The notes below the pieces were generated by a model that saw only the letters and a program-made list of their open reading frames with translations, did not search any database and was not told where the DNA came from. From Actinopolymorpha cephalotaxi (GTDB lineage: Bacteria > Actinomycetota > Actinomycetes > Propionibacteriales > Actinopolymorphaceae), in assembly GCF_013408535.1 (NCBI RefSeq), contig NZ_JACBZA010000001.1, positions 6,222,850 to 6,286,849 on the forward strand: DNA of 64,000 nt. Direction: 5' to 3'. A program made the translations under genes and the position numbers. The number at the start of each line of letters is the position of its first letter. Positions within the stretch are counted from its first letter, which is position 1. Positions 31,528 through 33,105 of this stretch are shown one piece after another.

Positions 31528-32748
31528 TCAGCCGGGGACGTGCTCTGCCCGGCCGCCGATGCTCGACGTCAGGGCACGTGAAATCGCGCGGCGCATGCTG
31601 GCCGCGGACTGGTAGCGGCGGTCGGGATCCTTCTGCAGGGCGCGCAGCACGATCGCGTCGTACTCCGGCGGGAGGCCCGGAAGGAGAACCGACGGAGCGA
31701 GCGGTTCCTCGTGCATGTGGCGGCAGGCGACTTCGTACGGAGTGGGGCCCGTGAACGGAGGAACTCCGGTGAGCAGTTCGTACAGCACACAGCCGACCGC
31801 GTAGATGTCACTGCGGTTGTCGATCGGACGTCCGGCAGCCTGTTCGGGAGACAGATACTGGGCGGTGCCGACTATCGCGGCCGGGTCGGTCAGGCGGCCG
31901 GTCTGCTCGGTGGGAGAGCAGGCGATACCGAAGTCCATCACCTTGATGGCGCCCGACGTGGTGACCATGATGTTGCCCGGCTTGACGTCTCGATGGACTA
32001 TGCCGTGCCGGTGGCTGGCCTGGAGCGCGTCCAGGACGTCGATGAGGATCTCCAGGCTGCGCCCGGGCCGAAGCGGGCCGCTTTCGGCGGCCACCTCCTT
32101 GAGGGTCGTGCCCTCGATCTGCTCCATGACGATGAACGGAACGTCGACCCCTCCGTGGTGGGTCGTACCGGTGTCGTGGACGGCGACGATGGACGGGTGG
32201 CTGAGGGCGGCCGCCAACCGCGCCTCGCGACGAAAACGTGCGAGGAACTCCGGCTGTACGGCGAGGTGGCTGCGCAGAATCTTGACGGCCACCGACCTGC
32301 CGAGGAGGTTGTCCGCGGCGTCCCACACTTCGGCCATCCCGCCGTGGCCGAGCAGCCCGCGAAGTTCGTACCGCCCGTCGAGCGGCCGGTCGACGGGCTT
32401 CCGTTCCTCCCCGGCGTCCGCGTCACCGGCATCGCCGTCCTTCGAGACGAGTACGGTCCGGTCGGCGGCGGCCAGCGGCGTGGCGCCGCGCATCGCGCCG
32501 ACCGGCATGCCGGCAACGTCTTCTTGACGCCCCCAGTCCAGCCGGCTGACCACCTCGGCGAACCGGATGTAGGTGTCGATGCTCGCGATCACCGCACGCG
32601 TCTCGAGTGCGAGGAGTTCGGCGCCGACGACCGCCACCCGCAGGTTCGCTTCGATGACGATGCCCTTGTGGAGCACGGCTTCGACGACCTCGGCGAGCCT
32701 GTGTGGTCGGGGCGCGCGGCTGATGTTCTGCGCGTACACGGCAGCCAT
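31528..32748 (-). CDS. GvpA-like gas-vesicle domain fused to a Ser/Thr protein kinase
   Basis: 406 residues from the ATG at 32748; GGAGGT lies six bases upstream. Residues about 18 to 68 ([20 protein letters not shown], then [20 protein letters not shown], then [10 protein letters not shown]) match the gas-vesicle shell protein GvpA almost along its whole core: helix, two strands, helix. A linker (70 to 122) leads to a PknB-like kinase, 127 to 395: Gly loop [16 protein letters not shown] Lys in VAVKIL (about K156), HRDVKPGNI (about 252 to 260), DFG (272 to 274), [11 protein letters not shown] and [15 protein letters not shown]. All catalytic residues are present. There is no membrane helix or PASTA domain. 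No other gvp gene lies in the window, so the shell domain is likely used for self-assembly, targeting or sensing rather than flotation. Function is inference. Confidence 0.9.
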
Positions 32749-33105
32749 GAGTGCGACCTCCAACGGCCTATGTCACTCCGGACCGCTCCCCGAACGGCTC
32801 GGGTCGAATCAACGTGTGCTCACCCTTCCACATGATCAAGAAAACACCCATAGGGGTTGGATCACGCGTGGGCACCGGCACGCAGAGCGAGTGCGCCGGC
32901 GGCAGACCTCTCCGGCGGGTGAGATCGGACCTGTCAATGGCTGCTTGACGCAGAGCAATCGATCGGTCGCGGGGAAGCGATGTGGTGGCCGAGTCCGGAA
33001 CCTTACCGGCCAAGATCTGACATTTTCGGTAAAGATGCCATTCGCACGACCGTCGCGGGGGCGTGTCCCCACATTCCGCGCAACCCCAACCCATGAGGTG
33101 ACGGC
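32749..33105. other. Divergent regulatory region between the GvpA-kinase and the peptidase
   Basis: About 360 bases with no convincing gene on either strand; the minus frame that crosses it overlaps the opposite genes and has no domain. It must hold both promoters. I saw no riboswitch consensus. Confidence 0.5.

Follow-up and report, generated by a model that had tools for sequence, protein, structure and literature searches.

A GvpA-derived domain fused to a PknB-type kinase in Actinopolymorpha: a candidate soluble kinase clustered by gas-vesicle-type assembly

A single gene on the minus strand of the Actinopolymorpha cephalotaxi window (the 64,000-nucleotide stretch of contig NZ_JACBZA010000001.1 that was analysed) encodes a 406-aa protein in which a domain derived from GvpA, the usual wall-building protein of gas vesicles, precedes a PknB-type Ser/Thr kinase (31528..32748). 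The gene was identified from its open reading frame, from Pfam matches and from orthologs in three more genomes. Both halves belong to known families and their joining is a new variant; searches of an open-access library brought up no title or abstract opening that describes a GvpA-kinase fusion. The reading favored here, at somewhat less than even confidence, is that of a soluble kinase clustered by a GvpA-type assembly domain, the protein probably joining GvpA polymers as a minor subunit.

In the whole protein, Pfam placed Gas_vesicle (PF00741) at residues 18-55 (E 1.4e-9, 38.3 bits against a cut-off of 25) and Pkinase (PF00069) at residues 127-381 (E 2.7e-43, over the cut-off). Residues 1-120 alone scored 41.6 bits with PF00741 (E 1.4e-10) against the same cut-off of 25. 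The first-pass annotation had described one 406-residue gene joining a GvpA-like domain to a kinase and had proposed an HMM comparison of the N-terminal part with the GvpA family; with both families above their Pfam cut-offs, the description was borne out. The GvpA-derived domain, delimited by Pfam, phmmer, alignment and tree, spans residues 9-70 with the Pfam core at 18-55 (32539..32724, minus strand). It is followed by a fast-evolving linker, residues 71-125 (32374..32538, minus strand), of 55 residues compared with 67-77 in the three orthologs, and by the kinase domain, delimited by Pfam and a PknB alignment, at residues 126-396 (31561..32373, minus strand). A ribosome-binding site read from the sequence, GGAGGT (32756..32761, minus strand), lies 7 nt upstream of the ATG start.

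The search of related genomes that had been suggested found the fusion in three more Actinopolymorpha genomes, making four of the six in the genus (G000, G003, G004 and G005; A. rutila is a carrier) among eight genomes of the family. The fusion orthologs were 76-88% identical in aligned pieces. Because three further genomes carry the fusion in one frame, the worry that a frameshift or assembly artefact had joined two genes is gone; with four one-frame copies in two different neighbourhoods, that explanation has virtually no chance of being correct. The G005 ortholog has an assembly gap inside the kinase part, away from the Gvp-kinase junction. In this copy (L012, L061) the kinase stretch just before a run of X is repeated after it, which is probably an assembly error. 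No PF00741 place coincided with a kinase match in G001 (130 contigs, 95% complete) or in G002, and zero PF00741 places were present in G006 and G007. Eight PF00741 matches were counted in each of the four carriers, nine in G002 and three in G001; G002 lacks the fusion but possesses GvpA of the parental type.

Within the limits of the sequence searches, the fusion appeared limited to Actinopolymorpha and was not found elsewhere. An order-level search of 391 genomes at E 1e-102, which admits near copies only, returned four genomes with the fusion. A contig search with residues 1-120 returned 17 loci, one of which was the fusion (L039, A. rutila), and the Gvp-motif frames of the other 16 were short. 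Samples of the class (394 genomes) and the phylum (396 genomes), which overlap and are not exhaustive, were also searched. In the class sample, of the 15 listed non-fusion rows with frames of at least 290 aa, the 13 examined were plain GvpA, with G541 and G558 outside these 13 and all five rows of at least 350 aa among them. In the phylum sample a kinase motif was present in none of the seven rows examined, out of 12 other rows with frames of at least 350 aa; one of the seven, G769, had no Gvp motif either. None of the best 25 of 43 plasmid records was named a kinase, H1, H2 and H13 of those being without annotation.

A second kind of Gvp fusion was seen in other Actinomycetota, in which frames of about 250-390 aa (L100, L101, L102, L103 and L107) combine an N-terminal Gas_vesicle domain with a GRAM/PH-like part. 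Two of these five frames were scanned: L101 exceeded the cut-offs of both Gas_vesicle (E 5.5e-17) and GRAM (E 2.7e-6); L107 matched Gas_vesicle (E 1.4e-9), with GRAM below cut-off. In a distant genome, an open frame of 863 aa (L099) also matched the profile of the fusion domain, though weakly (E 8.6e-4), and showed no Gvp or kinase motif by patterns.

The relationship of the N-terminal domain to GvpA was also evident in phmmer comparisons with the PDB, in which residues 9-72 matched GvpA 7r1c (E 1.1e-14) and residues 15-68 matched GvpA 8gbs (E 6.5e-14). Two NCBIfam GvpA models scored the fusion below cut-off (NF006872, 84.2 against 151; NF006874, 66.3 against 100), as they did an 83-aa piece of the genome's own GvpA (140.1 and 98.2, respectively). 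Numbered as in Anabaena GvpA, the residues R31, E38 and E/D43 are retained in four of four fusions; these are named as rib electrostatics in a report on GvpA (PMC9994262). In contrast, D21, an aromatic residue at 29, I37 and I/V46 were found in 21/21 GvpA-clade domains compared and in 0/4 fusions, the GvpA-clade and J/S-like classes of this comparison having been defined from motif patterns rather than from the tree. The homology claimed for the domain stood, and "shell protein plus kinase" proved too simple because the fused domain has diverged from GvpA and no longer has residues conserved in 21/21 of the GvpA domains compared.

Residue 29 is polar in the fusion and likewise in 29/29 J/S-like domains. 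Position 46, Ala in the fusion, was Leu in 22, Ala in five, Ile in one and Val in one of these 29 domains; of the Ala46 domains, the three examined are those of GvpA-GRAM proteins. Ala37 of the fusion was absent from all 50 other domains compared, including every J/S-like one. In the numbering used here, I37 presumably corresponds to GvpA I34. The GvpA substitution I34M is reported to give very long, thin vesicles (PMC4390858). The RAAIA motif is described, for haloarchaeal proteins, as confined to GvpJ and GvpM, with RVVAA at that place in GvpA (PMC8716928); the fusion reads RAVIA at this site. As judged by residues, the fusion domain truly resembles minor shell proteins at position 29 and does so in part at position 46. 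An N-terminal RAPRP segment is common to the fusion and the genome's own GvpA.

In a tree of 74 Gvp domains, which has only 67 columns and many unresolved forks, the four fusion domains fell together (100/99) and were nested in an Actinopolymorpha GvpA group, with enclosing groups of 9 rows (95/79) and 16 rows (99/82, one long-branched Streptomyces row included). Their tree neighbour was a GvpA beginning ...INRAPRPSSLADVLE. Over the core, the fusion domains shared 35-39 of 53 residues with one own GvpA and 33-38 of 53 with another; with Anabaena GvpA they shared 30-33 of 53. Pooled pN/pS, from pairs that are not independent and with modest synonymous change, was 0.46 for residues 1-72 (bootstrap 0.29-0.75), 0.89 for the linker (0.69-1.16) and 0.30 for the kinase (0.22-0.39). 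The value for the Gvp part was below that of the linker in 99% of resamples, and single pairs in the Gvp part ranged from 0.30 to 0.83. These ratios indicate purifying selection on the Gvp part. For one plain GvpA, all six pairs of the four carrier genomes were 100% identical across 63 core residues, and the fused Gvp copies differed by 14-26% among the same carriers. Because the plain GvpA is unchanged over these residues, the fused domain has far more freedom to vary than shell GvpA yet is constrained.

The kinase half aligned collinearly with PknB 6b2p (phmmer, E 3.1e-91). Every catalytic motif is in place (K156, E175, D254, N259 and D272), as had been stated on first inspection. The PknB alignment located the ATP-binding Lys156 at 32281..32283, the catalytic Asp254 of HRDVKPGN at 31987..31989 and the DFG Asp272 at 31933..31935, all on the minus strand; Lys156 aligns with K40 of PknB. 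The kinase is complete by motifs and is predicted to be active. Activation-loop T287 is present, and the second activation-loop Thr is replaced by Pro289. At residue 289 (window 31882-31884) all four orthologs have Pro (LTDPAA) where PknB has Thr, and one Thr remains. Also retained are the N-lobe positions R126, L149 and D192, presumably equivalent to the PknB N-lobe dimer residues R10, L33 and D76. N-lobe dimerisation is reported to activate PknB and PknD, and local concentration perhaps does so too (PMC3601408).

The fusion was said to have no membrane helix and, indeed, it has zero hydrophobic stretches above the threshold that detects one in 25/26 related kinases. No PASTA family is among its Pfam matches, the protein stops about 10 residues past the kinase, and the NCBIfam PASTA-kinase model scored 397.4 bits, below its cut-off of 450. 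The kinase domain is 59-60% identical to L013 and L019, which, like L027, are kinases of the neighbouring group with a membrane helix and PASTA-type repeats as read by eye. In a quick tree the kinase halves of the fusions formed one clade (100) near PASTA kinases; the fork (85) is shown open and has a long-branched row as its neighbour.

The absence of any other gvp gene from the window was upheld, as one of the eight PF00741 places of the genome falls there, the fusion itself. A search of the remaining genome, also suggested at the outset, located seven further PF00741 genes, all outside the window, in two regions near 2.75-2.76 and 3.56 Mb; by our labels three are GvpA-like and four J/S-like. 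The GvpF/L (four), GvpG, GvpK and GvpO families are also represented, and other Gvp genes coexist with the fusion in all four carriers. The three plain GvpA proteins of the genome have long charged Ser/Arg-rich tails, which would lie outside a shell. Protein pairs with long charged tails adjoin gvp genes at three places (L056:13129-17765, L056:4437-6484 and L058:12659-14619), and one member of each pair has a polyketide-cyclase/lipid-transport (SRPBCC-type) domain. The L058 pair comes after GvpG, as gvpY and gvpZ are described to do in Streptomyces coelicolor (PMC5839063). According to the same report, no soil bacterium has ever been found to contain gas vesicles, and the buoyancy of Streptomyces is unaltered when the gvp clusters are lost (PMC5839063). 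PF00741 matches occurred in at least 92 of the 394 genomes sampled from the class.

Structure prediction was made for monomers, with no GvpA control. The AlphaFold model of the full protein (mean pLDDT 71.4) has a low-confidence helix, with residues 25-60 below 50; the domain alone (83.2) was predicted as a confident single helix over residues 15-76, not as coil-alpha-beta-beta-alpha. The long-helix outcome may be a reflection of the missing polymer, yet it lends no support to a GvpA fold. In GvpA polymers the reported spacing is 12 angstrom between subunits along a rib and 48.8 angstrom between ribs (PMC9994262). Each subunit thus occupies about 586 square angstrom, whereas a 30-kDa globule needs about 1,320, so that in one layer at most about 44% of subunits could carry a kinase. 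A shell of fusion protein alone is sterically unlikely because the globule outsizes the per-subunit area. The C-terminus of GvpA is described as flexible, outward and mutation-tolerant, and fluorescent-protein fusions to GvpA as not tolerated (PMC10961726); wall-forming regions of GvpA are reported to tolerate few mutations (PMC10185304).

Upstream of the gene lies a conserved block, TTGATCATGTGGAAGGGTGAG, a possible promoter or operator (32819..32839, minus strand), of which 11 bases, TGATCATGTGG, are identical in four of four orthologs. The block is kept in G004 although the gene sits elsewhere there. The window's neighbourhood is common to G003 and G005 and different in G004, and thus no operon partner is implied. 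The only exact match to the block pattern in the genome was the fusion's own. No shared regulation with the gvp clusters was found: the pattern with up to three mismatches gave five genomic matches, one of them exact, compared with five for a reversed control. A SigB-like reading (GTTT-N14-GGGTG in the window) was rejected, being inexact in the other three orthologs and expected roughly once on each strand of 64 kb.

The proposed mechanism begins with a gvpA of the genus's own cluster, which would have been duplicated and joined ahead of a PASTA-PknB-group kinase without membrane helix or sensor. The N-terminal GvpA-type domain would then act as the assembly module of a soluble kinase, and the fusion, as a minor subunit, would enter or cap the ends of GvpA polymers made from the cell's own gvp clusters. 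Since the GvpA C-terminus points outwards, the 55-77-residue linker would hold the kinase domains on the outer face of the polymer, and the packing limit of about 44% is compatible with a subunit that is minor and has a long linker. Crowding could lead to N-lobe dimerisation and then to autophosphorylation, as is thought for ligand binding or localisation of membrane PknB, with the Ser/Arg-rich tails of neighbouring GvpA as plausible substrates. A bolder version, which we consider rather unlikely, would make GvpA polymers of this soil genus signalling scaffolds with a shell-built kinase minor subunit, its activity set by polymer growth or state, that phosphorylates the outer GvpA tails.

Arguing for the minor subunit are the domain scores, the nesting among the genus's own GvpA, purifying selection and the retained rib residues and RAPRP segment, together with the outward GvpA C-terminus, polar 29, Ala46 and the kept N-lobe positions. 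The other GvpA-like, J/S-like, GvpF/L, G, K and O genes, and the eight PF00741 places per carrier, point the same way. Against it, D21, aromatic 29 and I37 are changed in 4/4 and the J/S likeness is partial; few mutations of the GvpA wall, and no fluorescent-protein fusions, are reported as tolerated; AlphaFold predicted a helix; the gene lies outside a gvp cluster, with an upstream block that has no exact second genomic copy; no gas vesicles are reported from soil bacteria; and G002 has the parental GvpA without the fusion. The diverged positions, fixed in all four orthologs, could set the domain apart from shell GvpA, and together with the separate locus and its own upstream block would suit a Gvp domain that assembles with itself into an oligomer or filament without any part played by the gvp clusters, with kinase clustering as its sole role. 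We regard this as unlikely, though deserving some weight, given that the domain retains the rib residues and the N-terminal segment, that a large homopolymer with a kinase on each 12-angstrom subunit would be crowded and that all four carriers keep seven other PF00741 genes.

GvpF/L proteins bind GvpA monomers, and the genome has four GvpL/F-family genes. The Gvp domain could therefore be a docking tag for GvpF/GvpL-type accessory proteins that brings the kinase to the gvp machinery outside the polymer, consistent with the lost GvpA positions; the conserved rib-contact residues speak against this reading, which is quite improbable. A reading in which only the soluble kinase matters, its Gvp part being a remnant in decay, is very improbable. 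The changed key positions, and the 14-26% difference among fused copies against 100% identity of the plain GvpA over 63 core residues, would be expected of decay, but several of the changes are fixed in 4/4 and the pN/pS of 0.46 (0.29-0.75) fell under that of the linker in 99% of resamples.

If the signalling-scaffold version is true, the gvp genes of non-floating actinomycetes would have a function beyond buoyancy; the fusion suggests that gas-vesicle-type walls may have a second use in signalling. The fusion, naturally occurring and under selection, offers a handle on the role of gvp clusters in soil actinomycetes and, were the kinase shown to be carried on a shell, would go beyond a variant of known families. 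In it a GvpA-type subunit may naturally carry a large domain, something that fluorescent-protein engineering is reported not to have achieved (PMC10961726). It may also show a route by which a receptor-type kinase becomes soluble, a polymer domain replacing the sensor.

Compared with GvpA itself (PF00741; 7r1c, 8gbs), the fusion is homologous over residues 9-72 and keeps R31/E38/E43, KGIVI and the TYxRFAE helix, but bears a kinase, is without D21, aromatic 29, I37 and I/V46, and is encoded outside any gvp cluster. With the minor shell proteins GvpJ, GvpM and GvpS it shares polar 29 and Ala46, as in RAAIA, whereas it groups with GvpA in the tree, its R31 and TYxRFAE helix are GvpA-like, and 22/29 J/S-like domains have Leu46 where the fusion has Ala. 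The GvpA-GRAM/PH-like proteins resemble it in combining an N-terminal Gvp domain with another C-terminal domain and in having polar 29 and Ala46; they differ in carrying a GRAM/PH-like part instead of a kinase and in belonging to a different Gvp subgroup by sequence. Among the PknB/Stk1 PASTA kinases, to which its kinase stands in a neighbouring clade with the N-lobe dimer positions kept, the fusion is set apart by the missing membrane helix and PASTA repeats and by the change of the second loop Thr to Pro.
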